DNA of 64,000 nucleotides from an uncultured bacterium (lineage in GTDB: Bacteria > Krumholzibacteriota > Krumholzibacteriia > LZORAL124-64-63). This document shows, one piece after another, positions 28,605 through 62,767 of the stretch (positions are counted from its first letter, which is position 1; the number at the start of each line of letters is the position of its first letter). The notes under the pieces are model-generated. The model ran no database searches and was not told the DNA's origin. It saw only the letters and a program-made list of their open reading frames with translations. The DNA is taken from NCBI GenBank assembly GCA_903912525.1, contig CAIWHK010000006.1, positions 62,001-126,000 on the forward strand, read 5' to 3'. The position numbers and the translations under genes were made by a program.

Positions 28605-28658
28605 CATAGATTGGCCGTCACGATGGGAATCTTGTCCGTCCGGATTGACGGGAGCCCG

Positions 28659-31001: not shown

Positions 31002-31025
31002 GCCGGCCTGGACTTGCCAGTCCGG

Positions 31026-31043
31026 ACTTGCGCCGGCGCAACT
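31026..31043. repeat. Near-perfect copy of the 18-bp palindrome (one mismatch)
   Basis: ACTTGCGCCGGCGCAACT differs from the consensus at one base of the right arm. It lies 24 bp after the exported-protein gene and 59 bp before a second copy, in the gap preceding the ABC transporter genes. Confidence 0.85.
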
Positions 31044-31084
31044 CTCACGATCGCGCGACACATCGACGGCGCCGGCGATCTTCC

Positions 31085-31102
31085 ACTTGCGCCGGCGCAA
31101 GT
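31085..31102. repeat. Perfect copy of the 18-bp palindrome
   Basis: An exact ACTTGCGCCGGCGCAAGT lies 55 bp upstream of the preferred start of the ABC ATPase gene. Together with the copy at 31026 it forms a direct pair with a 59-bp centre-to-centre distance. GACGGCGCCGGCGATC between them shares the central GCGCCGGCG and may be a decayed relative. Confidence 0.9.
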
Positions 31103-31157
31103 CTTCGCCTTCCCTGAGGCGAGACGTCCCACCCCGCACCAGGACCGGTCCCTGCCC

Positions 31158-33201: not shown

Positions 33202-34026
33202 ATGGGATGGCGGGGATGGGTGCTTCTGCTGGTCGCGATGACACTGGCGACAGCGGCCCTGGGCGCGGCGCCCGCGGCCTGGACCCACGTGACGGTGCTG
33301 CGGGCCGATGGCGGCCGCCTCGCTGACGTGACCCTGGCCTGGGCGCTGGGCGGCTACCTGCTCGAGGCGAAGTCCGCCGACGGCCAGGTGACCACCCTGA
33401 GCCCCGACCAGGTGCGGCAGGTGCTCAGCTTCGATGAGCGCGACCTGACCGACGAGGTCGGCGCCGCCTGCCCCGCCGACGATATCGACTTCCACCTGCT
33501 CGGCAGCCGCAAGCACGTGCCGTTCCGCTTCGCCCTGATGGCCGATGCGGGCGGGGGCGTGGCGTTGTCCAACGGCAACGGCGGCTCGAAGGCGAACGGC
33601 GCGCTCGTGGCCGGCCTGCGCGTGGGCATCAGTGACCAGCTGCATGCGCGGGTGGGTTTCCGCGGGCAGCATGCCTCCGAGGCGACCTCCGCGGTGGGCG
33701 GCACGATGGCGGCCGACACCGGCGAACTCCTCGTGATGATGGGCATTCGCCTGACCCGCCCGCGCGAGAACAACAACTACGCCTACCTCGAGGCCGGCGT
33801 GTCGCTGGTGCACTATTCCGACCGCTTCGGCGCCGACGGCCGCTCGCTGGCCGACGCGGACCTCGTGACGATCAGCCCCGCGTTGCAGGGCGGCGTGGTG
33901 CTGCCGCTGAACCGGCACGTGGGCGTGGACATCGGCGGCTTCGTGTCCTCGCGCGGCTCGCTCGATGCGGCCGCTGAACAGACGGTGCTCAGCGTGGGGG
34001 CCACCGTTGGGGTGACGCTGCGATGA
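33202..34026 (+). CDS. Probable outer-membrane beta-barrel protein
   Basis: The function is unknown. The 274-residue product has a signal peptide (WVLLLVAMTLATAALGAAPAA), a small N-terminal domain (VTVLRADGGRLADVTL to LSPDQVRQVLSFDE) and then alternating strands such as FRFALMADAGGGVALS, RVGISDQLHARVGFRG, YAYLEAGVSLVHYSD, PALQGGVVLPLNRHVGVDIGGFVSSRGS and a C-terminal VGATVGVTLR, which resembles an outer-membrane porin-like barrel ending in an aromatic-free strand. AGGAGGGG precedes the ATG. It follows the ABC permease closely and overlaps the methyltransferase gene by ATGA. Confidence 0.6.
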   Translation: MGWRGWVLLLVAMTLATAALGAAPAAWTHVTVLRADGGRLADVTLAWALGGYLLEAKSADGQVTTLSPDQVRQVLSFDERDLTDEVGAACPADDIDFHLLGSRKHVPFRFALMADAGGGVALSNGNGGSKANGALVAGLRVGISDQLHARVGFRGQHASEATSAVGGTMAADTGELLVMMGIRLTRPRENNNYAYLEAGVSLVHYSDRFGADGRSLADADLVTISPALQGGVVLPLNRHVGVDIGGFVSSRGSLDAAAEQTVLSVGATVGVTLR

Positions 34027-34763
34027 CCGACGGCTTCAGCAACGTCTACGACGACGCCGACCGCGCCGCCTCGTACGACCAGCTCGAGTACCCGGGCACC
34101 TACCACCTGGCGTTCCGCGACATCCCCGACCTCATCGCGCGGCACGCCGTCGCGCCCACGCGGCGCGCCCTGGACTTCGGCTGCGGCGCCGGCCGCTCGA
34201 CGCGGTTCCTGAAGGCGCACGGCTGGGACGCCTGCGGCGCCGACATCTCCGCCGCGATGCTCGACCTCGCCCGTACCCGTGACCCCGAGGGCGCCTACCG
34301 CCTTGTGCGGGACGGCAACCTGGGCGACGACGTGCAAGGCCCCTTCGACCTGATCCTCTCGGCCTTCACCTTCGACAACATCCCCGGCTGGGAAAAAAAG
34401 GTGGCGCTGATGAGCGCGCTGCGCGAGCGGCTGGGCCCCGGCGGCCGGCTGCTGAACCTGGTCTCATCGCCGGACATCTACAGGCACGAATGGGTGTCGT
34501 TCTCGACGAAGGACTTCCCCGAGAACCGGCAGGCCCGCACCGGCGACCGCGTGCGGATCATCATGCTCGATGTGCCGGACCGGCGGCCGGTGGACGACAT
34601 CCTCTGGGAGCGGGACGCGTATCTGGAGGTCTACCGGCGGGCGGGGATGGGGCGGATCGAGGAGCACCTGCCGCTGGGGCGGCCTGACGATGGGATCGTG
34701 TGGGTCAGCGAGACGGCGGTGGCGCCGTGGGCCATCGATGTGGTGGGAAAGGCGGAGGCATGA
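34023..34763 (+). CDS. Class I SAM-dependent methyltransferase
   Basis: This 246-residue protein carries SAM motif I ALDFGCGAGRSTRFL (about 49-62), the acidic ribose-binding residue in CGADISAAML, motif IV FDLILSAFTFDNIP and a post-motif region LGPGGRLLNLVSS. The rest shows no substrate-specific domain. It starts by an ATGA overlap with the barrel gene and ends by the same overlap with the next secreted protein, so the three form one transcription unit with the ABC transporter. The substrate is unknown. Confidence 0.85.
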   Translation: MTDGFSNVYDDADRAASYDQLEYPGTYHLAFRDIPDLIARHAVAPTRRALDFGCGAGRSTRFLKAHGWDACGADISAAMLDLARTRDPEGAYRLVRDGNLGDDVQGPFDLILSAFTFDNIPGWEKKVALMSALRERLGPGGRLLNLVSSPDIYRHEWVSFSTKDFPENRQARTGDRVRIIMLDVPDRRPVDDILWERDAYLEVYRRAGMGRIEEHLPLGRPDDGIVWVSETAVAPWAIDVVGKAEA

Positions 34764-35503
34764 GGTACGCACGACTTATCGTCATCGGGTTGGCGCTGGG
34801 GCTGTCCGGCGCCGCGTCGGCCAACGGGCCTGAGATCGGCTTCAGCGCGGGCGGCATCTTTCCACTGGCCAGCACCCAGGTCCGGCTGGTGGAGGAGTTC
34901 GTCACCGTGCCGATCGAGGGCGGCGCGGTGCGCTGCCAGTACACGCTCAAGAACCTGGACGAGGCGCCGGCTTCGATCACGATGGGCTTCGTGACGAATG
35001 CCCCGTGGCCACGTCCCGATAATCCGTATGGCGCGCAGTATCGTGCGTCGCATTTCGAGGTGATCCGGGATGGCCGGTCGCTGCCGGTCCGGCTGGAGGC
35101 TCTCGACAAGGACACGTGGGCGTCGTTCATGACGGTGCCGCCGGACTCGTTGCCGGTCTGGACGCTCGATTTCGGGCCGCGCGAGAAAGTCTGGCTCTCG
35201 ATCAGTTATGACGTGCTGCCCTCGGGCGGGTGCGATGGCAGCCACTGCTCGCTCGACATGACCTACTATGCCGCCACGGCGCGGCTGTGGGCGGGAGAGG
35301 TGGGCTACGCCAGCATCCAGTTCACCTTCGGCCGGGTCGCGGCGATCCTGCGCCAGGGCATCCCCGATTGTTCCCCGTATTTCCGGCTGGAGGCCAGCCC
35401 ACCGTTCTACCGGGAGACTGCCGGGGGCATCGCGTGGGAGTACAAGGACTGGGAGCCCGACACCGATTTCAAAGTCCGGATCGATTGGACGGCAGCCAAC
35501 TGA
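34760..35503 (+). CDS. Secreted protein of unknown function
   Basis: The 247-residue protein begins with a signal peptide (RYARLIVIGLALGLSGAASA) and continues with a beta-rich domain: IFPLASTQVRLVEEFVTVPIEGGAVRCQYTLKNLDEAPASITMGF, then ASFMTVPPDSLPVWTLDFGPREKVWLSISYDVLPSGG. The layout recalls proteins with a Ig-like fold that start from LASxxVRLxxE; no enzymatic motif is seen. Two cysteines (CDGSHC) could form a disulfide. The start overlaps the methyltransferase stop; GCGGAGG lies upstream. It is the last gene before the rimP operon leader. Confidence 0.55.
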   Translation: MRYARLIVIGLALGLSGAASANGPEIGFSAGGIFPLASTQVRLVEEFVTVPIEGGAVRCQYTLKNLDEAPASITMGFVTNAPWPRPDNPYGAQYRASHFEVIRDGRSLPVRLEALDKDTWASFMTVPPDSLPVWTLDFGPREKVWLSISYDVLPSGGCDGSHCSLDMTYYAATARLWAGEVGYASIQFTFGRVAAILRQGIPDCSPYFRLEASPPFYRETAGGIAWEYKDWEPDTDFKVRIDWTAAN

Positions 35504-35517
35504 CCTGGCGCAACCGG

Positions 35518-35535
35518 ACTTGCGCCGGCGCAAGT
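35518..35535. repeat. Perfect copy of the 18-bp palindrome
   Basis: An exact copy lies 14 bp after the stop of the secreted-protein gene, in the gap before the rimP operon. The sequence between it and the rimP promoter includes an A+T-rich patch (TTTATCGATAATATG, about 35573-35587) whose role is unclear. Confidence 0.9.
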
Positions 35536-35691
35536 GCCCCCGAATCCCGGTTCGCGGGCCGGATGAGCATTTATCGATAATATGTTGTCATTTATAGGGA
35601 TCCCGTCAGGGCTGCCGGGGGCTGGGCCGCCCACCCCCGAACCCGCCCCAACCCCTGAACTTCCATCCCCAACCCCCCAAACCGATTGCGC

Positions 35692-44959: not shown

Positions 44960-44962
44960 GGG

Positions 44963-44980
44963 AGTTGCGCCGGCGGAAGT
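44963..44980. repeat. Degenerate copy of the 18-bp palindrome
   Basis: AGTTGCGCCGGCGGAAGT differs from the consensus at two positions, one in each arm. It lies between the ribF stop and the terminator stem, directly abutting the latter. Confidence 0.7.
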
Positions 44981-45017
44981 GGGACGCGGGGCGGTCGATC
45001 GCCCCGCGTCCCTTTTT
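44981..45017 (+). terminator. Strong intrinsic terminator of the rimP-ribF operon
   Basis: GGGACGCGGGGCG (44981-44993) pairs perfectly over 13 bp with CGCCCCGCGTCCC (45000-45012) around GTCGAT and is followed by TTTTT. It separates ribF from the convergent cupin gene. Confidence 0.93.
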
Positions 45018-45631: not shown

Positions 45632-46714
45632 ATGACCGCCATCCAACTGCCCGATTTCGCCGCCGGCCGCCTCGCCGCGCAGGTCGATGCCTCGTTGCGC
45701 CAATCCCTGGCCGCCTGCGACCGCGCGCGCGAATGCGCCGTGCTGTGGTTCGCCGAGGTTCAACGGCGCGCGCTCTACCGCGAACTCGGCCATCCCAGCC
45801 TGCAGGTGTACGCCACCGAGGCGCTGGGTTTCAGCCCCAACCGTTATTGGCAGTTCAAGCGACTGGCTGATGACCTCGATCGGTTGCCGGTGCTTTGCGA
45901 AGCCGTCGCGGCTGGCGACATCGGCTGGACCAAGGCGCAGCAGGTGGCGCGCGTGGCGACGCCGGCCACGCAAGAGGCGTGGGTGGGCAAGGCGGTGGCC
46001 ACCGGCCGCCGCGAACTGGAGCGCGAGGTTCGGCAGGCGCGGTGCCAGTTGCGCCGGCGCAAGTCGGGGGCGGTGGTGGCGGCGCCCGAGGCCGTTCCGC
46101 CGGCGACCATCACCCTGCGCGCCGACGGCCTGCAACTGGCCCGCTTCGAGGCGCTCATGGAGAGGGTGCGGAAGCTGCGCCTGGCGGACGCCGACGCGGA
46201 TCGCATGGACCTGGTGTTGGCGGGACTGGAGGCGTTGGTGGCGTCGGCGACAGCGGAGGCAACGCACGCCTCGACGCCTCCCGTGCAGGTCGTCGTGCAC
46301 CAGTGCCCCGATTGCGGCGAGGCCGCGGCGGTCACCAGCCGCGGCGAGCAGCGACTTGCGCCGGCGCAAGTGGCGGCCCTCGCCTGCGACGCGCGCGTGC
46401 GCGAACCGGGAAAGCCGAACCGGGCGACGATCCCGCCTTCAACCAGGGCCAAAGTGCTGGCAAGGGATCGGCACCGCTGCACGACGCCCGGCTGCGGCGC
46501 GACGCGGTTCCTGGAGGTGCATCACGTGGTGGCGCGGGCGGACGGGGGCGGCAACGACATGGAGAACCTGGTCACGTTGTGCTCGCGGTGCCATCGGCAT
46601 CGGCATGAACACGGGAGCGCGACTTGCGCCGGCGCAAGTCGCAATGCATCACGTCACGGCGCGCCCGCGCCGCGGCCGGAATCGGCTACGGTCAGCCGGA
46701 CATCAAAGCGATAA
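45632..46714 (+). CDS. HNH endonuclease (DUF222-like) carrying three copies of the palindrome
   Basis: The 360-residue protein has an N-terminal helical region of the kind found in DUF222/13E12-type proteins (ARECAVLWFAEVQRRALYRELGHPSLQVYATEALGFS), a CPDCG pair near residue 227 and a C-terminal HNH nuclease domain: STRAKVLARDRHRCTTPGCG, FLEVHHVVARADGGGNDMENLVTLCSRCHRHRHEHG. The HH, N and H metal and catalytic residues are present. Three palindrome copies lie inside the gene, at codons 139, 241 and 331, each in a different frame and read as LRRRKS, LAPAQV and TCAGAS. The third comes right after the HNH domain. The last 61 bp overlap the convergent methyltransferase gene. Biological target unknown. 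Confidence 0.83.
   Translation: MTAIQLPDFAAGRLAAQVDASLRQSLAACDRARECAVLWFAEVQRRALYRELGHPSLQVYATEALGFSPNRYWQFKRLADDLDRLPVLCEAVAAGDIGWTKAQQVARVATPATQEAWVGKAVATGRRELEREVRQARCQLRRRKSGAVVAAPEAVPPATITLRADGLQLARFEALMERVRKLRLADADADRMDLVLAGLEALVASATAEATHASTPPVQVVVHQCPDCGEAAAVTSRGEQRLAPAQVAALACDARVREPGKPNRATIPPSTRAKVLARDRHRCTTPGCGATRFLEVHHVVARADGGGNDMENLVTLCSRCHRHRHEHGSATCAGASRNASRHGAPAPRPESATVSRTSKR
46047..46064. repeat. Near-perfect palindrome copy inside the HNH gene (first)
   Basis: AGTTGCGCCGGCGCAAGT, one mismatch from consensus, begins at the second base of a codon and is read as QLRRRKS. It falls in a linker between the N-terminal helical region and the middle of the protein. Confidence 0.88.
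46354..46371. repeat. Perfect palindrome copy inside the HNH gene (second)
   Basis: An exact copy begins at the third base of a codon and is read as RLAPAQV. It lies between the CPDCG pair and the HNH domain. Confidence 0.92.
46622..46639. repeat. Perfect palindrome copy inside the HNH gene (third)
   Basis: An exact copy begins at the first base of a codon and is read as TCAGAS, immediately after the last HNH histidines and 15 bp before the end of the opposing methyltransferase gene. Confidence 0.92.
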
Positions 46715-49724: not shown

Positions 49725-52088
49725 ATGCGCCAATCCCGTTATGCATTGACCGTTCTGGCCGCGTTCGTGGCCATTCTGGCGGCTGTCACGGCTGTCCTGC
49801 CGGCGATTGCCCAGACCCCCGATCCCGCCATGCTGGACGAGGCGGCCCGCCGCACCGGGCTGAGCCGCGAGGAGCTGTTGCGCCGGTATGCGAGTGGCGG
49901 CGCCCCCGGCGCCGCCGTCTCCGGTCCGGCCGCCGAGCCGGTCACCGAACCCGGCCGCACCTCGATCCAGGGCATCGACGACACCAACCCCACCGGCGCC
50001 TGGCGCGACACCGACGTGAACGTCGTGTTGCCCATGTCGCAGGTGCAGGCGCTGCAGGCGCAAGCCACGGCCGCCGATTCGGCGGCCACCGGCGTCAACG
50101 CCACCTTCGGCGCCAGCTTCTTCAGGCTCGATGCCGGCGTGTTCCAGCCGCCCAGCTTCGGGCCGGTGTCGGCGGACTACCGTTTGGGAGTGGGCGACGA
50201 GCTGGTCGTGCACGCGTGGGGCGAGGTCGACTTCCAGATGACGCGCGTCGTGGACCGCGACGGCTGCATCATCCTGCCGCGCACCGGCAAGGTGACCTGC
50301 GCGGGCCGCACGCTGGGCGAGGCCGCGGCCTCGATCCGCGCGCAGCTGGCGCAGAGCCACGCCTCGATTGGCGGCGGCGACAAGGGCAAGGGCGGCACCC
50401 AGGTCGAGGTGACCCTGGGCCAGCTGCGGCCCATCCGCGTCTACGTGATCGGCGAGGCGACGCGGCCCGGCTCGTACCAGCTGAGCTCGGCCTCGACCGT
50501 GCTGACGGCGCTGTACGCGGCGGGCGGCCCGGCCGCGACCGGTTCGTACCGCGACATCCGGCTGATGAGGGGAACGGACGTCGTCGCCCACCTGGACCTG
50601 TACGACTACCTGACCAAGGGCGCGCGCACGGGCGACCGCCTGCTGCAGGAGGGCGACACGGTCTACATCCCGGACCGCCAGCGGCGCGTCCAGATCATCG
50701 GCCCGGTGCGCCGGCCGATGTACTACGAAATGAAGGCCGGCGAGAAGCTGTCCGACCTGCTGGGCTACGCCGGCGGCCTGGCCCCCGAGGCCGTGCCCGA
50801 CCCGGTGCACATCCGCCGCGTGCTGGCGGCCGCCGATCGACGCGACGGCCAGCCGGACCACGTGTTCGTCGACGTGTCATCGAAGGGCAAACCGGTGGAG
50901 CTGCTGGACGGCGACCAGGTCGTCGTCGACGCCATCACCGATCGCCTGGACCGCTACGTCGACGTCAAGGGCAGCGTGAAGGTGCCCGGCCGCTACGAGT
51001 ACCGCGAGGGCCTGACGGTCGCCGACCTGCTGGCGATGGCCGGCGGCCTGTGGCCCGACGCCATGACCGACAAGGCCATCATCGACCGCACGACGCCCGA
51101 GGGCGACCTGCTGTCGGTGACCGTGCCGTTGGACGGCACCGGCGAGCCGGTGCCACTGCAATCGCGCGACATGCTCCACGTGTTCGCGCGCTGGGAGCTC
51201 AAGAGCCGCCCGCAGGTGTTCATCACGGGCGAGGTGTTCGAGCCCGTCCAGCCCCAGTGGCGCGAAGGCATGACTTTGCGCGAACTGGTGCTCAAGGCCG
51301 GCGGCCTCAAAGACAGCGCCAACCTGATGCAGGCCGAGGTGTCGCGCCTGCTGGCCGATGCCGTCGCCAGCACCGACATCACCAAGCGGCCCGAACAGAC
51401 CGTCGACGTCATCCGCGTGCCCCTGGGGGCGGATTTCCTGACCCGCGACGACGGCTTCCTGCTGCAGCCCTACGACCGCATCGCCATCCGCCGCCTGCCG
51501 TGGTGGGAGTTGCAGCAGACCGTCACGCTGCGCGGCGAGGTGTTCTTCCCGGGCCAGTTCAGCCTCGAACGCAAGGACGAGCGCCTGTCCACGCTGATCG
51601 CCCGCGCCGGCGGCCTGCGTCCGGACGCCTACCCCGAGGGCGCGCGCGTGCAGCGCTCGCAGGACAACGTCGGCAACGTGGCCATCAACCTGGCCGAGGC
51701 GCTGGCCAAGCCCGGTTCGGAGCAAGACATCATCCTGCAGGCCGGCGACGAAGTGATCATCCCCGACCGCATGTTCACCGTGAAGGTGGTGGGCGAGGTG
51801 GGCTTCCCCACCAGCCTGGTCTGGGAAGAGGGCAAGAAGATCAACTGGTACGTCGACCGCGCCGGCGGCTACCTGGAGAAATCCGACAAGGGCAAGTCGC
51901 GCGTCGTGTGGCCGAACGGCATGTCGCTGCCCAACAAGGGCGGCTCGAAGGTGATCGCCGGCTCGACGATCATCGTCCCGCGCAAGGCCCCGCCCGAAGG
52001 GGAGAGCACGTTGTCGAAGTTGAAGGAGATCAGCGGGATTTTGGCGGGGTTGGCTACGGTTTGGTTGGTGATTGACCGGACGAATTGA
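49725..52088 (+). CDS. Wza-like polysaccharide export protein with multiple SLBB domains
   Basis: The 787-residue protein has a signal peptide (YALTVLAAFVAILAAVTAVLPAIAQ), a variable N-terminal region, then the Poly_export domain (YRLGVGDELVVHAWGEVDFQMTRVVDRDGCIILPRTGKVTCAGRTLGEA, about 152-200) and a series of SLBB units, seen as IRVYVIGEATRPGSYQL, RVQIIGPVRRPMYYEM, YVDVKGSVKVPGRYEYREG, QVFITGEVFEPVQPQW, TVTLRGEVFFPGQFSL and FTVKVVGEVGFPTSLVW. Such proteins form the outer-membrane channel for capsule or exopolysaccharide. No lipobox is seen, unlike E. coli Wza. A C-terminal hydrophobic helix (ISGILAGLATVWLVI) may anchor it. G+C falls in the last codons, at the border of the low-G+C segment. 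Confidence 0.9.
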   Translation: MRQSRYALTVLAAFVAILAAVTAVLPAIAQTPDPAMLDEAARRTGLSREELLRRYASGGAPGAAVSGPAAEPVTEPGRTSIQGIDDTNPTGAWRDTDVNVVLPMSQVQALQAQATAADSAATGVNATFGASFFRLDAGVFQPPSFGPVSADYRLGVGDELVVHAWGEVDFQMTRVVDRDGCIILPRTGKVTCAGRTLGEAAASIRAQLAQSHASIGGGDKGKGGTQVEVTLGQLRPIRVYVIGEATRPGSYQLSSASTVLTALYAAGGPAATGSYRDIRLMRGTDVVAHLDLYDYLTKGARTGDRLLQEGDTVYIPDRQRRVQIIGPVRRPMYYEMKAGEKLSDLLGYAGGLAPEAVPDPVHIRRVLAAADRRDGQPDHVFVDVSSKGKPVELLDGDQVVVDAITDRLDRYVDVKGSVKVPGRYEYREGLTVADLLAMAGGLWPDAMTDKAIIDRTTPEGDLLSVTVPLDGTGEPVPLQSRDMLHVFARWELKSRPQVFITGEVFEPVQPQWREGMTLRELVLKAGGLKDSANLMQAEVSRLLADAVASTDITKRPEQTVDVIRVPLGADFLTRDDGFLLQPYDRIAIRRLPWWELQQTVTLRGEVFFPGQFSLERKDERLSTLIARAGGLRPDAYPEGARVQRSQDNVGNVAINLAEALAKPGSEQDIILQAGDEVIIPDRMFTVKVVGEVGFPTSLVWEEGKKINWYVDRAGGYLEKSDKGKSRVVWPNGMSLPNKGGSKVIAGSTIIVPRKAPPEGESTLSKLKEISGILAGLATVWLVIDRTN

Positions 52089-52127
52089 CCCGCAATCGGT
52101 TGGAAAAACCTCCGGAGATGTACACGA

Positions 52128-53078
52128 ATGGGGCAGATTCAGCAACCGGATCGCACGCTCGCGGAAGAAATTGGTTTGCTCGCCGGCCTCGTTTGGGCGA
52201 ATCGGTGGCGGCTCTTGCTGATGTTGACAATTACTTTCGTCCTGTCCGCTGCCACAACGTTCCTGCTTCGGCCGCGCTTCACGTCCACCGCAACTGTCCT
52301 CCCAGGAAGCAGTGGGTCGCGGTTGGGCGGCATGTTAGGTGAACTGAGCGCATTTTCAGGGATCGCGGGACTGAATGTCGGGGGCGTGGGTGTAGATATC
52401 TACCCCATAGTTGCGAGAAGCAATACGATAGTGTCACGGGTTCTAGCCACGGATTTCAACGGTAAGACCGTATTGGAAACGTTGCTGGAAGGTGAGACTG
52501 GCGATCCGCAAACCGTTGAGACAATTACACGCGACTTCAAGGCGCGCATTGTCACCTCGAAAGATCTTCGAAGCGGCTCCCTGCGATTCGAGTTCACTCA
52601 CCGGGACCCTGATTTTGCAGCATTTGTCCTGAACACAATCTTGGACAACCTGGAGTCATATTTTCGGGAAACGTCTGGCGTGGAGGCCCGTGAGCAGCGG
52701 CAACTGATCGAGTCTCGAATCGCGACGGTTGCCGGCGAAGTAAGGGTCGCTGAAGACGATCTCAGGGAATTCCGGACAGAGAATCGGGCTGTTCTCTCGT
52801 CTCCACTTCTCGCACTCGAAGAAGGTCGTCTAGTTCGCCAAGTGGAGATCAAGAATAGGATCTACCTCGAGCTGGCTGCCCAGTTGGAAGTGTCTAGGAT
52901 CAGGGAAGCTGGAAGCGTGACCGTTCTCAAAATTCTGGATCGCGCTTCACGGCCGCAGCACAAGTCGTGGCCGCAGCGCAGCCTGATCGTGCTTGTGGCC
53001 GTGTTTTGCGTCGGCGGGTTGTACGTCATCTTCTTGCGCTGGAGATACGCTCATTACATCGATGCGGCTTCAGCATGA
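52128..53078 (+). CDS. Wzz-type chain-length determinant protein
   Basis: This inner-membrane co-polymerase regulates polysaccharide chain length. Its 316 residues have two membrane helices (about 28-47 and 283-304) framing a periplasmic domain. The N-terminal helix and the strand after it (LLLMLTITFVLSAATTFLLRPRFTSTATVLP) match the Wzz domain. A central coiled-coil region (REQRQLIESRIATVAGEVRVAEDDLREF) follows. A Gly-rich loop (GGMLGELSAFSGIAGLNVGGVGVD) is typical of the group. No kinase domain is fused, so regulation by tyrosine phosphorylation would need a separate gene. The stop overlaps the ATP-grasp gene by ATGA. Confidence 0.87.
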   Translation: MGQIQQPDRTLAEEIGLLAGLVWANRWRLLLMLTITFVLSAATTFLLRPRFTSTATVLPGSSGSRLGGMLGELSAFSGIAGLNVGGVGVDIYPIVARSNTIVSRVLATDFNGKTVLETLLEGETGDPQTVETITRDFKARIVTSKDLRSGSLRFEFTHRDPDFAAFVLNTILDNLESYFRETSGVEAREQRQLIESRIATVAGEVRVAEDDLREFRTENRAVLSSPLLALEEGRLVRQVEIKNRIYLELAAQLEVSRIREAGSVTVLKILDRASRPQHKSWPQRSLIVLVAVFCVGGLYVIFLRWRYAHYIDAASA

Positions 53079-54118
53079 AGATTGCCTTGCATTGGCAGGC
53101 GGAGACCTTTGCAGAACGCTGGGAACCGGCGATCCTCGATCGTGGGATCGAATGTGTCCGGGTCTCCGCCTATGATCCCGATTTGTTGGTTCGCCTCCGT
53201 TCGTTTGACCTGTTTCTCTGGAACTGGACCCTGCACGATCCTCGGGCATTGCTTCATGCGCGGAGTCTCTTGGCGGCGGTTGAAGAACAGGGACTTGGGG
53301 TATTCCCAGATCGCCACACCTCCTGGCACTACGATGACAAGGTTGCTCAGAAGTTTCTGTTGGAGTCGGTGGGTGCGCCGATTGTGCCAACACGGGTGCT
53401 TTTTGACGCAGAATCCGCGCACGCGTGGGCTGCAACCGCGTCGTATCCCATGGTTTTTAAGCTCAGGCGTGGGGCTGGTTCCAACAATGTTCGCCTCTTG
53501 CGAAGCCGCGTAGAAGCTGACCGGATTGTGACCCAGATGTTCGGAGCGGGTATGGTGGCCGTGCCCGGCTATCTTACGGACGCAGCAACGAAATTGCGCC
53601 GTATCCACGGACTTGGTGATGTATCTGCGCGTCTGCGGAGGCTGCCCCAATCCATTGCGCATATTGCCCACGAACGTCGACTGGTGGCGCGCGAGAAGGA
53701 CTATGTTCTGTTTCAAGAATACCTGCCCGATAATGGCTTCGATACTAGGATAGTGGTCATTGGAAAGAAGGCGTTCGGAATGAGACGCATGAATCGCCCT
53801 GGGGACTTCCGGGCATCAGGCAGCGGATTTATTGACTATACGGCAGAGGCGATTTCGCCGGAAGCGCTGAAGATCGCTTTTGACGTGTCGCGCAGGTTGC
53901 GGTTTCAGTCGATGGCCTATGACTTCCTTGTGGATACTGAGGGACGGTCCCGGATTTGCGAGATTAGCTATTGTTTCACACCGGGTCAGGTCTATGAACG
54001 ATGTGAAGGGCACTGGGATGAATCGCTTACGTTCCACCCCGGTCATGTTTTTCTTGAGGACGTAATTCTCGATCTGATGATCGGCCTCAGCCAGCGGAAA
54101 GGAACAGGCGTTGCCTAG
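53075..54118 (+). CDS. ATP-grasp ligase-like protein
   Basis: The 347-residue protein has a RimK-like ATP-grasp layout: PMVFKLRRGAGSNNVRLL (about 127-144) as the phosphate-binding strand-loop, VLFQEYLPDNGFDTRIVVIGKKAFGMRRMNR (about 211-241) with the D-x-R pair, and SMAYDFLVDTEGRSRICEISYCF (about 278-300) where the usual E-x-N metal motif reads EIS. ATP-grasp enzymes join a carboxylate to an amine or thiol through an acyl phosphate. In a capsule operon this one may add an amino acid to a sugar acid; that is inference. It overlaps Wzz by 4 bp and the Wzy-like gene by 8 bp. Confidence 0.75.
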   Translation: MKIALHWQAETFAERWEPAILDRGIECVRVSAYDPDLLVRLRSFDLFLWNWTLHDPRALLHARSLLAAVEEQGLGVFPDRHTSWHYDDKVAQKFLLESVGAPIVPTRVLFDAESAHAWAATASYPMVFKLRRGAGSNNVRLLRSRVEADRIVTQMFGAGMVAVPGYLTDAATKLRRIHGLGDVSARLRRLPQSIAHIAHERRLVAREKDYVLFQEYLPDNGFDTRIVVIGKKAFGMRRMNRPGDFRASGSGFIDYTAEAISPEALKIAFDVSRRLRFQSMAYDFLVDTEGRSRICEISYCFTPGQVYERCEGHWDESLTFHPGHVFLEDVILDLMIGLSQRKGTGVA

Positions 54119-55406
54119 GGGCATCTTCCCAGTACAGGCAGTTCCGGTTGGATCACTGGCGCGAGATGATGTTGCGTCACCGATCATCGCTCGGGTGCTA
54201 CTGGTCGCGGTCGCAGTGTGTCTGCCCTGGTCAAGTGATGCCCCAACAGCGATGGGTGCCATCCTTTCTCGCATTTTTGCGGTTGCCCAGGTCCTCACTA
54301 TTCTCTACTGGGCGACGCAAGTGCGCCAACCGTTCGTCCGCGCGCCAGCATCGTTCGGCTTGTTTGTGGTGTTCGTTATGGCTCACACGCTTGTAGTTTA
54401 TGGACTCCTGAGCCCTTCGGAACTGTTTGTCAGCGACTACAGCGCAGCCCTGGGGCAAGAGATGGGGCAAGTAGTTTCGCGGGCTGTGGTGGTTGCGAAG
54501 TTCTTCGGATTTGTTCTGTTCTGCTATGCAGTTGCATCCATAGCGGGGTGCGATGGACACCTAACTCCGATCGGACTGGGCCTCGGAGTCAGCTTGGTCG
54601 CGCTTCTCGCACTGGGTCGCAGCGAACAATTGATTGACGTAAGCGGTCGATACACCGGCGGCTACGCAAATGCAAATGCGTTCGCGGAGGTGTGTGTAGC
54701 TGCACTCTTCTTTAATGTCTATACGCTCTTCCAGACTCGTTCGGGCAGGACTGTGAAGATGGTCGCATTGTTTTTGGTTGCGGCGTCAGCGGGCGGACTA
54801 CTTATGTCGGCCTCCCGAAGCGCATTGATGGCGATTCTCGTCGGCATTTCAGGAGTGTTTGCGGTGGCCAGCGGGAGGCACCGTGTGCTGCTAGTTGCAA
54901 TAACGTTGGCTGCGATTGCTATTGTGATGCTCATTGCACCCCAAAATGCGTTCGAGTTGGTCTACAGGCGAAGCACAGAATCGTTGGTAAATCTCAGATC
55001 GCTGATCTGGGGCGCCTACTTGCAGCAATGGCGCGAGTATGTGCCATTTGGAGTCGGCCTTGGGCGCGAGATGACAACTCTGAGCGGCCCGGTCTTCATG
55101 GATCGGATCTGGCCGCCCCACAATACCGTGCTTCAGGTGACGGTAGCATACGGAGTGCTGGGACCAGTGCTGCTGATGGCATTCATGCTCGCCTGTGTGC
55201 GGCGAGCATGGCGCCGCGCGCGGAGCATCGGGGGCGTCAGTGCTTCGGCCGTGGCTTTGGGTCTGGTGTTGAGTTGGATGACTCTGATGTTTACTGGTGA
55301 CCGCCTAGGTGCCCGCGTCTTCTGGCTCATGTTAGGGATGGTATTCGCAATCTTGGTCACGCATAACGACGCCGGCCAATCAGAGAGACAGGGGAAGGGA
55401 ACATGA
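54111..55406 (+). CDS. O-antigen polymerase/ligase-like membrane protein (Wzy)
   Basis: The 431-residue integral membrane protein has about ten to twelve helices. Features of the Wzy/WaaL group are YTGGYANANAFAEVCVAALFF in one loop, LLMSASRSALMAILVGISGVF, and the large periplasmic loop with FGVGLGREMT and PPHNTVLQVTVAYGVLGPVLL, where the HN pair and the downstream helix are typical. It probably polymerises the lipid-linked repeat units flipped by the Wzx at 58.8 kb, with Wzz setting the length. TTG 54111 is the start in frame with overlap to the ATP-grasp gene; the stop overlaps capA. Confidence 0.82.
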   Translation: MPRGIFPVQAVPVGSLARDDVASPIIARVLLVAVAVCLPWSSDAPTAMGAILSRIFAVAQVLTILYWATQVRQPFVRAPASFGLFVVFVMAHTLVVYGLLSPSELFVSDYSAALGQEMGQVVSRAVVVAKFFGFVLFCYAVASIAGCDGHLTPIGLGLGVSLVALLALGRSEQLIDVSGRYTGGYANANAFAEVCVAALFFNVYTLFQTRSGRTVKMVALFLVAASAGGLLMSASRSALMAILVGISGVFAVASGRHRVLLVAITLAAIAIVMLIAPQNAFELVYRRSTESLVNLRSLIWGAYLQQWREYVPFGVGLGREMTTLSGPVFMDRIWPPHNTVLQVTVAYGVLGPVLLMAFMLACVRRAWRRARSIGGVSASAVALGLVLSWMTLMFTGDRLGARVFWLMLGMVFAILVTHNDAGQSERQGKGT

Positions 55407-56554
55407 GCCGGATCGTGATAGCCGGAGATCTTTACGCAGGCGGTTCCAACGAAGCATTTCTCATGAATGCTGATTGTGATGCGTATGCTGAAGTTAGCGC
55501 AGTGATTCGCTCGGCCGATTTCGCAGTTGCCAATCTGGAAGCGCCTCTTGCAGTCGACGGAGCCGCTCGCCGAAAGCTAGGCCCAAATCTGCGGGCACAT
55601 CCGCAGACGGCGAAAGGCCTGGCAGGCATCGGGATCAGCGCATTCTGTCTCGCCAACAATCACATCATGGACTATGGGGTGGTGGGACTCAACAGCACAA
55701 CGGCCGCCTGCCGGGAGAATTCGATCGCAGTTTTCGGCGCGGGCGCCAATATCGCCGCTGCGGGGAGTCCGGTGATTGCGGAGATTGACGGACTACGCAT
55801 AGGGTTCTTGGGGGTTGCCGAGCATGACGGTGTTGTGGCGACGCGTACGGAGGCTGGGCCTCTGCCCGCGGACCCGATTCTCGTGCACCGATGGATTCTA
55901 GACAATCGTTGTATGATGGATCGCCTTGTTGTGCTGTTGCACGGCAGTTTGGAGCATTTTCCATTTCCGACCCCGCGAGTTAGGGCCTTCTGCCGGTACC
56001 TTGTCGACTGTGGGGCTGATGCAGTCATTTGTCAGCACACGCATATCATCGGTTGCGAGGAACGGTATCGCGACGCGCCAATACTCTATGGCCAGGGCAA
56101 TTTCATGTTCGACTACAAATGCCCGCGGGACACGTGGTGGGTTGGATTGTTGGCCGTTCTGGACTTTGACGATACGGCACCGGCGCAAATGAGCTACCAA
56201 GTGGTGGAAAGTTCGTGTGCGATCGCCGGGGTGCGCCTCGCGGCACCGAGAATGGCAACGGCGGTCATGGATGCCATGAGGTTGCGGTCAATTGCGCTTC
56301 GTGATGAGGACGAATTTGATGCGATCTGGAATCGGCACAGTGCCGATCAGGCGCTCTGGTATCTCAATTGGCTAGATAGCATCCCTGCACTCCTGCGAAA
56401 GGTTGATCGGAGGTTGCATTTGTCGCCGAAGCTGCGCTCTCCTGGACGGCTAGTCAGCCAGCACAACGTGATTGCGTGTGAGAGTCATCGCGAGATGCTC
56501 TTGTCAGCACTCGCGCGCGATAGTGACGATCCGGCGACTGGAAGGCGGAAATGA
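55403..56554 (+). CDS. CapA-family metallophosphatase-like protein
   Basis: The family takes its name from CapA of poly-gamma-glutamate capsules and has a calcineurin-like fold. In these 383 residues the motifs are RIVIAGDLYAGGS at the N-terminus, FAVANLEAPLAV, FCLANNHIMDYG, VVLLHGSLEH and ICQHTHIIGCEERYRDAPILYGQGNFMFD; the Asp, Asn, His and His metal ligands appear in place, with the GHHPH motif changed to CQHTH. No signal peptide is seen. Together with the ATP-grasp gene it hints at an amino-acid-containing or peptide-modified polymer. It overlaps both neighbours by ATGA. Confidence 0.85.
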   Translation: MSRIVIAGDLYAGGSNEAFLMNADCDAYAEVSAVIRSADFAVANLEAPLAVDGAARRKLGPNLRAHPQTAKGLAGIGISAFCLANNHIMDYGVVGLNSTTAACRENSIAVFGAGANIAAAGSPVIAEIDGLRIGFLGVAEHDGVVATRTEAGPLPADPILVHRWILDNRCMMDRLVVLLHGSLEHFPFPTPRVRAFCRYLVDCGADAVICQHTHIIGCEERYRDAPILYGQGNFMFDYKCPRDTWWVGLLAVLDFDDTAPAQMSYQVVESSCAIAGVRLAAPRMATAVMDAMRLRSIALRDEDEFDAIWNRHSADQALWYLNWLDSIPALLRKVDRRLHLSPKLRSPGRLVSQHNVIACESHREMLLSALARDSDDPATGRRK

Positions 56555-57666
56555 GCCAGCGCGATGTTGTGGTGTTTGCCGAGCTCGACTGGGACGGGCT
56601 TCATTGTCAGAGCCATGTCATCGCGCTTGGAATGGCTGCCAGGGGGCATCGCGTCCTGTACGTGAACCGAACCTTGCAGCGATGGCCAACGGTAGACCAT
56701 CTGCGCCGTAGATTGCGCAGGTCGTCTGGAATCAGGGACGCCCGTAGCTATGTGGAACGGCCCTCGAATCTTGATTTCGTTACCCTATTCCATGCGCCGC
56801 CCACGGAATATCTGCGGGGAGTCAATACTGCCTTGGCGCGACGCCAATTGGCCGGATTCAGTCTAATTGATCCTGTAATGATCATCTATGTTCCGAGCTA
56901 TCTAGCGCTTGATGTGGCGTCCGTGCTGGGCGTTGGCGAATATCACTACGTGTGTTATCACAATTTTGACGCCGATAGAGTATTGCCGGATCTCTTGCGA
57001 TCTGAACGTGAAATCGTGGCCAACGCAAGAACGGTCTTTGCCGATTCCGAGTTCTTGCGGGCGCGGATCGCGCGCATGTCTGCTGGACGGCATGTGTATG
57101 CTTCGGAACCTGGGGTTTATTATGAACTTTTCGCGCAGAGTTTTCGTGGCGATGAAGCGGCTCGGCGGCGTCGCATTGCGTATTTCGGAGGTGTGGGGCC
57201 CCATCTGAATATTTCCGCGTACAATGCGCTTGCAGAGCGACATGAGGTGCTTCTGGTCGGAATCGTGGATTCGTCTATTCGCCGCGACCTGTCGCCGCGA
57301 ATTGAAGTGCAGGCGCCGGTGGCGAATCGCGAACTGCCGGGAATTCTGCGCGATGTGGACGTGATAGCGTTGCTATATAGGGATTCGGCCTATATGCGGG
57401 GGGTCATTCCGGCGAAGTTTTATGAATGCTTGGCGACTGGAAAGCCTGTTGTTGTGAGTGGTCTTGCGGAGTTGGACAGGTACCGCGATATCGTGTATGT
57501 CGCGGGCGAAGATCCGGTTGAGGTGTGCGGACTTGTCGCGGGGTTGAATCCGGCGGCCGATGCGTTGAGAGTGCATGCGCGACAAATCTTGGCCAGCCAA
57601 GCTGACTGGTCGCACCGCTTCCGTGATTTCTACGGGACTGTGTTTCCCACGGTGAATCATGGCTAG
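56551..57666 (+). CDS. Glycosyltransferase (GT-B fold, GT4-like)
   Basis: The 371-residue protein has a two-domain GT-B layout. The N-terminal half opens with VVVFAELDWDGLHCQSHVIALGMAARGHRVLYVNR; the C-terminal half has RIAYFGGVGPHLNISAYNALAERHEVLLVGIVD, then RELPGILRDVDVIALLYRDSAYMRGVIPAKFYECLATGKPVVVSGLAEL, the E-x7-E-like nucleotide-sugar region in which KFYECLATGKPVV is characteristic. The sugar is unknown. It overlaps capA by 4 bp and the next glycosyltransferase by 8 bp. The codon use is that of the low-G+C cassette. Confidence 0.82.
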   Translation: MSQRDVVVFAELDWDGLHCQSHVIALGMAARGHRVLYVNRTLQRWPTVDHLRRRLRRSSGIRDARSYVERPSNLDFVTLFHAPPTEYLRGVNTALARRQLAGFSLIDPVMIIYVPSYLALDVASVLGVGEYHYVCYHNFDADRVLPDLLRSEREIVANARTVFADSEFLRARIARMSAGRHVYASEPGVYYELFAQSFRGDEAARRRRIAYFGGVGPHLNISAYNALAERHEVLLVGIVDSSIRRDLSPRIEVQAPVANRELPGILRDVDVIALLYRDSAYMRGVIPAKFYECLATGKPVVVSGLAELDRYRDIVYVAGEDPVEVCGLVAGLNPAADALRVHARQILASQADWSHRFRDFYGTVFPTVNHG

Positions 57667-58813
57667 AGGGCACAGGCGACACATCATTATTCCATTTACC
57701 TATACGAATCCTGACTACTTTGGAGGCATCGAACGCAAGATTCTCATTATCGCGCGTTGGCTGCGCGAAAATTCGAATGTTGATGCGGTCTTGGCACTTA
57801 GTCATGTTGATAGCGAGTTCGGCGACGAGTACCGCAGGCTTGGTCTGGCCGTAGTGCCGTTCCCCGTTGCGCCGCGCGCGGGGTTCGTCAGGCGCGTGCG
57901 CGCCTTGTCTGCATATGTGCAGGAGTTTGATGCAATCGCGATCGAGACGCATCAGTTCCGTGATATGCTGTGCGGCGCAATGGTGCGGCGTTCCCGATCG
58001 GGCCTGCGGCATCTCTACCGCGGCCACACGCATATTGATGGATCCGAAATCCCGAACTGGCGCAATTGCGCTTATCACGCACTGGATTGGGCTGCTCAGG
58101 CCGGAGTCGACCGCTACTGTATGTTGAGCCGCGCGATCGCCGAAGAGTGTATGCGGCGCAGTGGAGTCTCACCGCGGAAAGTCTCTGTCGTTCACAACGG
58201 AATCCATGCCATTGGCCCGCTAAGTGATGTTCGTGGTGGCCCAGCACCTCTTACTCCTGCAATTGCTGTCGTGGGACAGTTTGAGCGCAGAAAGAACCAG
58301 GCAATGGTGGTCAGGGCGATCGCGGAGATGCGGCGCAAGTACGGCTGCGATGTACGTGCCAGGTTTGTAGGCGGCGACCTAGATGGGTACACTGGTGAGG
58401 TGCAACAGTTAGCTGCTGCTCTCGGCGTGAGCGATTTGATGGAATTTGTCGGTGCACGTCCGGAAGTGTACGACATGGTGGGCGCTATTGACGTGCATGT
58501 ACTCGGTTCCGATTTTGAGGGTATTCCGACCAGTATGATCGAAGCAATGAGCATAGCCAAGCTCGTGATCTGTACTGATGTTGGTGGCACGAGCGAGTTG
58601 GTTAGATCTGGCGAAAATGGCATCCTTGTGCGTCCTGGAGATCACTTGGGACTTGCGGAAACAATGCTGCGCGTTTTCTCAACACCAGCCGAGTCGTGGG
58701 TTGCGATGCGTTGGTGCGGGTATGACACGTGGCAGAGCGACTTTGGCGTGGATGCAATGATGCGAGGCATTTGTGATGCGTTTGCACGATGTGGACTTCA
58801 GATTGTCGACTAG
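57659..58813 (+). CDS. Glycosyltransferase family 4
   Basis: The 384-residue GT-B enzyme begins with HIIIPFTYTNPDYFGGIERKILIIARWLREN, where GGIER is the usual donor-domain opening of GT4 proteins. The C-terminal domain has AVVGQFERRKNQAMVVRAIAEM, RFVGGDLDGYTGEVQQLAAALG, LMEFVGARPEVYDMVGAIDVHVLGSDFEGIPTSMIEAMSIAKLVICTDVGGTSELV, including the E-G-x-P-x-x-x-x-E motif. It probably transfers an activated sugar to the lipid-linked repeat. It overlaps the upstream gene by 8 bp and ends in a 4-bp tail-to-tail overlap with the flippase gene. Confidence 0.9.
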   Translation: MARGHRRHIIIPFTYTNPDYFGGIERKILIIARWLRENSNVDAVLALSHVDSEFGDEYRRLGLAVVPFPVAPRAGFVRRVRALSAYVQEFDAIAIETHQFRDMLCGAMVRRSRSGLRHLYRGHTHIDGSEIPNWRNCAYHALDWAAQAGVDRYCMLSRAIAEECMRRSGVSPRKVSVVHNGIHAIGPLSDVRGGPAPLTPAIAVVGQFERRKNQAMVVRAIAEMRRKYGCDVRARFVGGDLDGYTGEVQQLAAALGVSDLMEFVGARPEVYDMVGAIDVHVLGSDFEGIPTSMIEAMSIAKLVICTDVGGTSELVRSGENGILVRPGDHLGLAETMLRVFSTPAESWVAMRWCGYDTWQSDFGVDAMMRGICDAFARCGLQIVD

Positions 58814-60156
58814 CGCCGGCGAAATTCTGCAATGCGGCGCCCGATTTGGACCAGTTCCACCAGGTCGGCGCGTTGGAAGACGATGCAATGCACGAATTTT
58901 GTTGCGCTTGTGCGAGAGAACATTGCGATGAGCATTGCCGTGCTCAATGCGTAGTTCCCGACAAGTGACCACGCGGCCCCTCTTATTCCCATCGGTTTAT
59001 AAAGAGCAAGTAGCAAAGCGGCATTTAGGGCGAGGCCAGCGGCTACGGCCACTGAGATCAATCCGGGTCTATTATGGGCAATCAGGTACGGTTCATAAAC
59101 TTTCCCAATGGAGCGTAGTGCGAACGCTCCGATAATGATCTGGAATAGTGGGACTGACGGCAGGAATGTCTCTGAGAACAGCGCCACAAAGACCGGCCTT
59201 GCAATCAGGAGTGATACAGCAACGCATATTACGCCAATCGCAGATAGCAATCGCCCGGTGCGCATCGCTTGTGCAACGGCTTGATTGGGGGTTTTGGCCA
59301 TCTTCGGGAGTAGCACAGTATAGATCGCGTCGGGAAGTGACATATATTGGATGGCAATCGCGCTGGCTTGACCGTATAGCCCCAATTCTGCGGGCGAAGC
59401 GCAAGCAGCTAGGACAAGTGGACCTAACCTGAAATTGAATTGATTGCCGATCTTTCCGAGATAAAAGCGACCTCCATAGCCGACCAGACTGCGGATTGTA
59501 TTCCAGGTCGGCCAGACGACTGCGGAGTTCCTTCCGCGGGCAAGCCAATAGAGTGCCGCAGAAACGAGTACGAGATCTGCAATGACGATCGATGTGATGG
59601 CTCCCAATGCTCCAGAGCCGAACGCGACGAGGATTGCCGTGGTAAGTGCAAGCACGAGGCATCGGTGGAGCACTTGAGCAGAGGAATACGCGCCGAATCG
59701 CTGCTCTGCTGTTGTCATGGAAAGAGCGGTCTGAGCGGCTAGCGCAGTCGCACCGGCAACTGTTCCCATTGCGAGATCGAGCGGGCGGGCCTTTGTAAGG
59801 AACCCGGACATAAAAGTCGGTTCCCACAGCAGGCAGATTGCCGTCAGCCCCAAGGCCAGCGCCAGGGATGCGATTGTGATGGCCAGTGCAGACGAAATCC
59901 CGTCAGCGAGCCTGACACGGCCCGACGATACGAAGTATAGAGACGATGTGTCGACACCGGGATTGAAGAGAATCATCGTTAGCGATCCCCATAAAAGGGC
60001 CGCCTCATATGTGCCGCGGCCTTCGGGACCAAGCGCTCGCGCGAGAACCACTTGGACGGCCAAAGCGAATACGAGGGTCGCTGCCTTGGCGCCGACAATT
60101 TGCAGAACGCTGCGTAGTGCGCCGTCGCGATGCTCGGAGCGAGTATTATTGGTCAT
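58810..60156 (-). CDS. Oligosaccharide flippase (Wzx-like)
   Basis: The 448-residue protein has about twelve to fourteen membrane helices. The opening LRSVLQIVGAKAATLVFALAVQVVLARALGPEGRGTYEAALLWGS matches the polysaccharide flippase family, with the LGPEGRGxY loop after helix 1. The C-terminal half has VYEPYLIAHNRPGLISVAVAAGLALNAALLLALYKPMGIRGAAWS, another family feature. It should translocate undecaprenyl-linked repeat units for polymerisation by Wzy. It is the distal gene of a three-gene minus-strand unit (glycosyltransferase, beta-propeller, flippase), overlapping the propeller gene by 11 bp. Confidence 0.87.
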   Translation of the reverse strand: MTNNTRSEHRDGALRSVLQIVGAKAATLVFALAVQVVLARALGPEGRGTYEAALLWGSLTMILFNPGVDTSSLYFVSSGRVRLADGISSALAITIASLALALGLTAICLLWEPTFMSGFLTKARPLDLAMGTVAGATALAAQTALSMTTAEQRFGAYSSAQVLHRCLVLALTTAILVAFGSGALGAITSIVIADLVLVSAALYWLARGRNSAVVWPTWNTIRSLVGYGGRFYLGKIGNQFNFRLGPLVLAACASPAELGLYGQASAIAIQYMSLPDAIYTVLLPKMAKTPNQAVAQAMRTGRLLSAIGVICVAVSLLIARPVFVALFSETFLPSVPLFQIIIGAFALRSIGKVYEPYLIAHNRPGLISVAVAAGLALNAALLLALYKPMGIRGAAWSLVGNYALSTAMLIAMFSRTSATKFVHCIVFQRADLVELVQIGRRIAEFRRR

Positions 60157-61429
60157 TGATTGCCTTCTGCAATATCCAGCATCGGCGCGTGCCGGTCATT
60201 ACGGAATCGAAAGAGATCGCAGTACCGAGCGGATGCCATCGAGGATGCAAGTCGCAGCGATTGACTCCGTGAAATACTGGTGGGTGGACTACGGAAGCAA
60301 CTTGATTGATGGCTCCAGTAGTTGGTTCTATACACGCGAGTCGCTGGACGCCGAACTTGTCGGGATAGGTGTCGGTCACAACCATTCCATTGGCGGCGCT
60401 GAAACTCGGATGGCCGTCCGACAAATTGCTGATCTCGGGTGCCGGGTGAGGAAGCGCAGAGGCTGTCGTGGCATCAATGTAGTGGTAGCGATAGCCTGAA
60501 TCCGACTCGCAATAGCAAAACAAGCGGGTGTTGTCGAGCCAGCAATAGTGGGAGATCAGTCCGCCGTCCAGGACGAGGGTAATCGTGTTTGTTGGGATGT
60601 GGAGCACGTACAATCGTGAACTCTGGTGTCGTCTGTTGCCCCAGCGGTGTAGGAATACAAGTCGATCTCCCTGAGGTGAAAATGCGACGTGATTGATCCA
60701 GTGTGTAGCGTGATGGAAAGCAGATCGAGGTGCCGTGCTCATGAGTTCGCTGATAGATATGCGCAGTTCGTAAACACCAGAATCGGTATTCAACAGGAAT
60801 AGGCCGTCATTTTCGGATGGCGGCAATGACTCATTGCTTAGCCGCTGGTAGCCGTACTCCGGCCTGAATGAAGTCAGGCGATCATAATTTATGGATGCGA
60901 AAATCCGTCCGTCGGGGCTGACGCTTTGAACCGGCCGTGTCATTCGATGCAACTCTGCCCCGGTGGTCGATATGATTCTGCAGATCAGTCGACCGTCGAG
61001 GAAGTCATTGAAGGCGATCGCCTCAAAGTCGCCCCACTGGAGCCACTGAAGCATTGCGCCCTGTTGGAGGTTCCAGGCAGCGGAGCTAGCAATCGTCCTG
61101 CGCTCGTGCGTCGAGGCGTCGTACAAAACGATCGATATGCGCTCAGGCTTGGATTTAGCCTCGGATGCATGAACCAAGAACCGACGCCCGTCTGTTGACC
61201 ACGGTGACTTGTCATAGTAGCCGAAGAATGTTTGGCCTTGGTGTTCGGCAACACCTGCCCACTCGGCTGGAGACTGGAGTCTGTACCCTGTGGCAATTTT
61301 GTGGACAAACGAACGTTGTGGTCGTATCGCCCAATTGGCAGCCAGGTATGCACGTTTGGCGAACGCATGCAGTTGGGGAAAGTTTCTTAGGTAGTTGCCC
61401 GCAAGGCGGGCAGTGGATTGATTCGTCAT
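60146..61429 (-). CDS. Beta-propeller (TolB/WD40-like) protein of the polysaccharide locus
   Basis: The function is unknown. The 427-residue protein has no clear signal peptide and shows repeated blade motifs: FGYYDKSPWSTDGRRFLVHAS, PVQSVSPDGRIFASINY, WINHVAFSPQGDRLVFLHRWGNRRHQSSRLYVLHIPT and NLSDGHPSFSAANGMVVTDTYPDKFGVQRLACIE. The order resembles oligogalacturonate-lyase-like or DPP6-like six- to seven-bladed propellers. The position between a GT2 gene and the flippase, overlapping both, ties it to the same pathway. It could be a sugar-modifying enzyme or a scaffold. The start ATG overlaps the GT2 stop by 4 bp. Confidence 0.65.
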   Translation of the reverse strand: MTNQSTARLAGNYLRNFPQLHAFAKRAYLAANWAIRPQRSFVHKIATGYRLQSPAEWAGVAEHQGQTFFGYYDKSPWSTDGRRFLVHASEAKSKPERISIVLYDASTHERRTIASSAAWNLQQGAMLQWLQWGDFEAIAFNDFLDGRLICRIISTTGAELHRMTRPVQSVSPDGRIFASINYDRLTSFRPEYGYQRLSNESLPPSENDGLFLLNTDSGVYELRISISELMSTAPRSAFHHATHWINHVAFSPQGDRLVFLHRWGNRRHQSSRLYVLHIPTNTITLVLDGGLISHYCWLDNTRLFCYCESDSGYRYHYIDATTASALPHPAPEISNLSDGHPSFSAANGMVVTDTYPDKFGVQRLACIEPTTGAINQVASVVHPPVFHGVNRCDLHPRWHPLGTAISFDSVMTGTRRCWILQKAINDQ

Positions 61430-62604: not shown

Positions 62605-62623
62605 AGGCTGCTCGCCCTATGGG

Positions 62624-62755
62624 CAGCCTGCTGGCCTCCGGGGTCGGCGGGAGGAATCCCAAGGAGCTGTGCCGTTTCGCTCGATTGTAAGGCCGCTCCC
62701 ACTGTTCCACCAAGACTTTTGCCTCCGAAACAATGCAAAAGATCTCCCGATTCCG
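62624..62755 (-). pseudogene. IS3-family transposase relic (C-terminal integrase end)
   Basis: About 44 codons read as REIFCIVSEAKVLVEQWERPYNR followed by AKRHSSLGFLPPTPEA. This corresponds to the end of IS3-type transposases, which typically read EAKVLIEQWRxxYNxxRPHSSLGYRPPAPEA. The start, the DDE core and inverted repeats are missing. It lies directly upstream of the GT2 gene, on the same strand, and abuts a methyltransferase fragment on the other strand, as if an insertion had removed the 5' part of that gene. Confidence 0.72.
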
Positions 62756-62767
62756 ATTGGATGCAAT

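Follow-up and report, generated by a model that had tools for sequence, protein, structure and literature searches.

Dispersed palindromes whose cognate enzyme is known are essentially the case of the REP sequences and RAYTs (REP-associated tyrosine transposases), in which hundreds of short, lineage-specific, mostly intergenic palindromes are paired with an enzyme gene that carries them or is flanked by them (PMC2817692, PMC3116915), and in which the repeat has a GTAG/CGTC-tagged imperfect stem-loop form (PMC3733652). Palindromes of about 16 bp are also the sites, parS and NBS, of the DNA-binding proteins ParB and Noc, which place a recognition helix implicated in specificity in the major groove (PMC7383237). 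Among HNH proteins, the DUF222-HNH proteins (13E12 repeat family, REP13E12 of mycobacteria) are multicopy and repeat-associated (PMC10589994), and fusions of the ParB-CTPase fold to HNH have been listed in a survey without sites or repeats (PMC12704722). HNH homing endonucleases are site-specific enzymes whose gene, or its host intron or intein, interrupts the recognition site, while the Rickettsia palindromic elements (RPEs) are palindromic DNA inside reading frames. Here, we describe a multicopy HNH gene family of a high-GC Candidatus Krumholzibacteriota genome whose product, with a predicted ParB/Noc-like domain, appears to have its own 18-letter palindromic target, scattered through the chromosome and inside the gene itself, with enzyme and target changing together from lineage to lineage.

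The window, a stretch of 64,000 nucleotides from this genome, whose phylum is inferred from the named relatives of the HNH protein, carries on its forward strand an HNH endonuclease gene of 360 codons (45632-46714; PF01844, E-value 5.7e-11). The initial annotation had noticed one palindrome three times in this gene in three reading frames, and this observation is confirmed. The sequence ACTTGCGCCGGCGCAAGT lies at 46046-46065 (copy 1, CAGTTGCGCCGGCGCAAGTC, one arm mismatch), 46353-46372 (copy 2) and 46621-46640 (copy 3). With the start at ATG 45632, the copies fall at codons ~139 (frame 2), ~242 (frame 0) and ~331 in three different frames and are read LRRRKS, LAPAQV and TCAGAS. The window has nine matches with up to three mismatches against 0.03 expected in shuffles. 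They include a decayed copy with three mismatches about 650 bp upstream of the gene (44962-44981), whose orthologues in two congeners (G001 and G002) are closer to the consensus, and solo copies between genes at 28586-28605 (after a recG-like ORF), 31025-31044, 31084-31103 (59 bp from the previous one) and 35517-35536. At 52001-64000 the G+C content falls from ~70% to ~56% with a mostly positive GC skew, possibly a foreign or mobile region. The claim that all copies lie in linkers or just after the HNH domain is only partly right, since copy 1 is at the end of a helix and the start of a gap-rich linker and copy 3 is in a disordered C-terminal tail, but copy 2 sits in a confidently folded strand-helix junction (pLDDT ~96) and aligns to homologues without an indel.

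The palindrome is not a local oddity. Its 16-bp core occurs 171 times in this genome (G000), while the pattern read backwards occurs 0 times, and it occurs 126, 82 and 113 times in the three congeners (G001-G003) and 0 times in 54 more distant relatives; genome-wide statistics rest on such pattern counts and on about 0.75 Mb of retrieved regions. The 157 distinct solo palindromes of the genus have a sharply bounded 18-bp unit, ASTTGCGCC/GGCGCAAST, with little information beyond position 10. Only 2 of 151 pass a coding test that 60% of random positions pass. Coding copies are therefore special to the HNH genes, in which 12 exact cores fall in 11.2 kb, against about 0.44 expected at the genome-wide rate. 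Palindromes are also locally dense in places, as in a cluster of about 18 solo copies in 40 kb (regions L065 and L066, G000:C7:49000-88999) against about one per 25 kb genome-wide, and in four palindromes in a 38-bp tandem spacing (L074:6558-6687, G000:C5); a 60-bp tandem of three lies at the end of and behind the HNH gene in region L060 (4177-4312).

The HNH gene is present in 12 copies in this genome, 5-18 in congeners and up to 26 in other genera. Nearly all genus copies with that region carry the palindrome at codon ~242, and many have it again in the C-terminal tail 267 bp downstream, in a linker near codon 135-160, and 150-250 bp upstream. The initial annotation argued that protein-level selection cannot explain the same DNA in three frames, and a DNA-level constraint or conversion is supported: in 31 paralogues the five codons of copy 2 (CTT GCG CCG GCG CAA) are 97-100% identical, against a mean of 70% at other conserved residues, although CTT makes up 8% of Leu and CAA 25% of Gln codons.

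HNH homologues outside the genus lack this palindrome, apart from two in genus g13 that share its core, but 36 of 46 contain a perfect palindrome of at least 14 bp, almost always in the linker just before the conserved VQIHVHxCPxC (nt 600-770), with 47 palindromes seen against 5.7 expected by local shuffling; the remaining 10 genes have no detectable palindrome. These palindromes are not at the homologous codon 242, as was first supposed, but 25-35 codons upstream, and in several cases the same palindrome recurs about 95-240 bp upstream of the gene. An HNH gene of genome G022 has, besides TTCCCCACGTGGGGAA in its linker, a second, 24-bp palindrome AAAAGTCTAGCCGGCTAGACTTTT near codon 122 (L032:889-912). 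Each palindrome is dispersed in the genome with the matching HNH gene and nearly absent elsewhere: GTCCACCCGGGTGGAC occurs 19 times in G045, GTCCAGACGTCTGGAC 11 times in G005 (10 of them away from HNH genes), GTCCAGCCGGCTGGAC 6 times in G034 and the GGCCCCCCGGGGGGCC type about 28 times in G004. In G004, small ORFs with marginal HTH_ParB matches (C101:1404-1673 and C249:12021-12278), the former contig also holding a GGCCCCCCGGGGGGCC palindrome about 4.5 kb away, are possibly remnants of the same family. The core TTGCGCCGGCGCAA occurs 6 times each in G015 and G030, whose HNH genes carry it, and 0 times in their genus mate G024, whose HNH gene does not. A pattern predicted from the HNH genes of G007, G010 and G027 gave 55, 11 and 18 copies, 3 in G019 of the same genus, and at most 3 in any other genome.

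Palindrome type follows the nuclease clade rather than the genome. On a maximum-likelihood tree of 77 HNH proteins, palindrome type changes 14 times outside the genus against 21.3 in shuffles (0 of 1000 as low), and 3 times in genus g8 against 7.1 (0 of 1000). Within G027 alone, which holds several HNH clades with different palindromes, the signal is weaker (3 changes, 41 of 1000 as low); its copy L075, for instance, shares CCCGCCGGCGGG with the orthologues in G010 and G019.

The protein has a predicted domain that could read palindromes. AlphaFold2 models (pLDDT 86.8 for the whole protein, 92.9 for the N-domain, mostly >90) give an all-helical N-terminal domain (45674-46069, residues 15-146), which Foldseek matches to the Noc DNA-binding domain in complex with its site (6y93_A, TM 0.74 by target length, probability 1.00, E-value 0.15) and to ParB. 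With the N-domain alone, the best 21 PDB matches are all ParB/Noc/Spo0J. However, Foldseek E-values are weak (0.01-0.3) despite probabilities of 0.9-1.0, and sequence support is weak although in line: HTH_ParB (PF17762) is hit in 20 of 58 members (best E-value 0.0022), while an hhalign profile-profile comparison of the family with ParB was not significant, so the ParB claim rests on predicted fold and weak HMM hits. DUF222 (PF02720) matches 19 of 58 members at E<=1 (best 3.2e-6), with a G007 member scoring 25.4 and a G013 member 24.1 against the cut-off of 24.4, and the window protein giving no match. In members of group A3, e.g. L026:1483-2637, DUF222 and the ParB HTH both match the same N-terminal region, suggesting that DUF222 contains a ParB-like HTH. 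Residues 1-14 precede the HTH domain and no ParB CTPase domain was hit. The N-domain is followed by a zinc-ribbon-like module inferred from paired cysteines (CPDC ... CD; 46283-46390, residues 218-253), which contains copy 2, and by the HNH nuclease domain (46436-46609, residues 269-326), in which H297, N312, H321, H325 and C283/C288/C317/C320 are conserved, with H297, N312, C317, C320, H321 and H325 invariant or nearly so. PADLOC hits were to generic HNH domains only.

The putative recognition helix (45836-45883, residues 69-84, PNRYWQFKRLADDLDR) co-varies with the palindrome. The equivalent helix reads NRYWQF with TTGCGCC, xRxGDF with CCCCCC, SRx(D/N/R)DF with GCCCCC and SKxYEF with TCCAxxC. 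Residue 73 ranks 2 of 322 columns for association with half-site base -6, and residues 74, 73 and 71 rank 1, 6 and 7 for base -4. In one HNH clade G73 goes with C at base -6 and D/N/R73 with G in 12 of 12 genes over several changes, and paralogues within G027 pair residue 73 = G with the site CCCCCCGGGGGG and residue 73 = D/N with GCCCCCGGGGGC. This covariation is partly phylogenetic and has exceptions elsewhere, as the HNH genes of regions L012 and L018 have N73 with C.

Several gene boundaries and rearrangements coincide with palindromes, which suggests cutting there. In 35 of 55 paralogue pairs of this genome, DNA homology ends within 3 bp of a palindrome's right edge, usually that of the terminal palindrome corresponding to copy 3, although in the second genome tested, G003, only 16 of 55 pairs do so. 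The left end is ragged, 0-115 bp upstream, which does not fit a classic IS with defined ends on both sides. In G001, one HNH copy (L072:5681-6339) has lost exactly the segment between its codon-135 and codon-242 palindromes, leaving one chimeric palindrome. Two genes of the window (33202-34026 and 34742-35503) are replaced by a palindrome alone between the neighbouring genes in G001 (L095), the first also in G003 (L098); the gene just before the solo copy at 35517-35536 is missing in G001, where the palindrome follows the preceding gene directly. Alignment ends between species coincide with palindromes in both genomes 17 times of 105 (0.06 expected), but this is suggestive only, as the loci were chosen around palindromes and alignments tend to stop there. 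Clean empty sites of solo palindromes were sought twice with orthologous flanks and none was found; nearly all two-sided orthologues share the palindrome, and two apparent 12-14-bp length differences were alignment shifts, so spread of single palindromes is not demonstrated. A plasmid or phage origin gained no support, as no full-length homologue was found on plasmids or phages and only one of 2.9 million viral contigs had the 18-bp palindrome (L304, IMGVR_UViG_3300031853_003355:1037-1054).

We consider it likely, though not certain, that the palindrome is the DNA recognition site of the HNH protein itself, which as a dimer should bind a two-fold symmetric site of about 18 bp (ACTTGCGCC/GGCGCAAGT in this genus). 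Nuclease clades and their sites would have diverged together, so that each genome carries sites that fit its own nucleases, dispersed between genes, inside the nuclease gene and sometimes upstream of it. In the most likely mechanism, the protein binds and at times nicks or cuts at or near the site, and repair from other copies keeps the sites identical, spreads or rearranges DNA at them and ends duplicated nuclease copies at a palindrome, while sites in the gene and upstream of it would also hold expression down. Our computations show the pairing of nuclease and palindrome, their co-diversification, the domain architecture (with the ParB/Noc-like fold as predicted), the boundaries of the site and the association with breakpoints, whereas binding, cutting, repair-driven spread and autoregulation are inferred without biochemical evidence. 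More than 170 cuttable sites should be toxic unless activity is gated, protected or limited to nicking.

The interpretation in the initial annotation is thus partly supported. Its suggestion that nuclease and palindrome belong together, the nuclease perhaps cutting or copying at the palindrome with its own gene as a hot spot, is strongly supported as regards the pairing, and two conditions named beforehand as able to refute it were examined: homologues lacking any palindrome but keeping the residues were found only for copy 2 at protein level, and an absence of any link between nuclease presence and palindrome number was not borne out, as the link is there. Its alternative, insertion of a frame-neutral RPE-like mini-element into tolerant coding sequence, is not supported and appears very improbable. 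Copy 1 sits in a length-variable linker, which leaves that copy compatible with an insertion, and copy 3 in a tail, but copy 2 shows no indel and lies in folded sequence, copies elsewhere avoid coding sequence, and the 18-bp unit is far shorter than RPEs.

The main rival, which we consider unlikely but not negligible, is a purely Noc-like role, in which the protein binds the palindromes as a nucleoid-associated or regulatory factor, sites are kept by selection for position, copies in and upstream of its own gene serve autoregulation, and no cutting or spreading takes place. The ParB/Noc-like domain, the almost exclusively intergenic solos, their stability between species and the sites upstream of some HNH genes agree with it, but the HNH metal and catalytic residues are conserved, the ParB CTPase domain is missing, and the gene is multicopy with duplicated units that often end at a palindrome and with deletions and gene replacement at palindromes. 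It is still less likely that the palindromes are REP-like repeats spread by a RAYT-type or unknown enzyme with the HNH gene as a tolerant or preferred target. Copy number and intergenic placement resemble REPs, yet Y1 transposases (PF01797) are absent from G000, G001 and G003, with one short broken match in G002, the same HNH family carries palindromes in unrelated genera with type following HNH clade, and solos avoid genes, so tolerance does not explain three copies inside one gene. Protein-level conservation or GC-rich chance similarity is refuted, although LAPAQ is nearly invariant in the genus, by the frozen codons including rare CTT and CAA, the three frames, and the 171 genomic copies against 0 for the reversed pattern.

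A more far-reaching possibility, which we hold only tentatively, is a previously undescribed class of selfish repeat system, in which ParB-HTH/HNH (DUF222-like) nucleases each recognise, cut and thereby propagate their own parS-like palindrome through bacterial chromosomes, including into their own genes, with residue-by-base co-evolution of enzyme and site. If so, it would give the large uncharacterised DUF222-HNH family, including the mycobacterial REP13E12 proteins, a molecular function. Our data suggest what DUF222-HNH proteins, a family almost absent from the literature searched, may recognise. They also offer a natural series of nuclease/site pairs, including paralogues in one genome that differ at one helix residue and one site base, for studying how DNA specificity evolves, and raise the puzzle of how a cell tolerates a nuclease with more than 170 sites in its own chromosome.

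Compared with the described systems, we found no account of an HNH family with cognate dispersed palindromes in the open-licence literature searched, which does not exclude a description elsewhere. The domain order is shared with DUF222-HNH proteins, for which no cognate palindrome has been described as far as found, but the window protein itself does not match DUF222. In the reported ParB-CTPase-HNH fusions a ParB-related module is likewise joined to HNH, but there the CTPase fold is the fused module, whereas here only the HTH domain is present. In contrast to HNH homing endonucleases, with which a site-specific HNH enzyme and a proposed repair-driven spread would be shared, the gene holds intact sites inside and beside it instead of interrupting its site, and is neither in an intron nor an intein. 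RPEs share only palindromic DNA inside reading frames, and differ in size, in the lack of an insertion at copy 2 and in that solos here avoid genes. ParB-parS and Noc-NBS resemble the present pair in the predicted fold of the DNA-binding domain and in a palindromic site of about 16 bp, in some clades with a CACGTG or CCCGGG centre, but here an HNH nuclease replaces the ParB CTPase and C-terminal dimerisation domains, and separate genuine ParB genes exist in most of these genomes. The organisation resembles REP/RAYT in its abundant, short, mostly intergenic, lineage-specific palindromes paired with an enzyme gene, but the sites are perfect two-fold 14-20-bp palindromes without the tagged hairpin form and lie inside the coding sequence of a multicopy enzyme, which is an HNH protein with a predicted ParB-like HTH and not a Y1/HUH transposase, and would represent a second, unrelated solution with a nuclease and a ParB-like reader.
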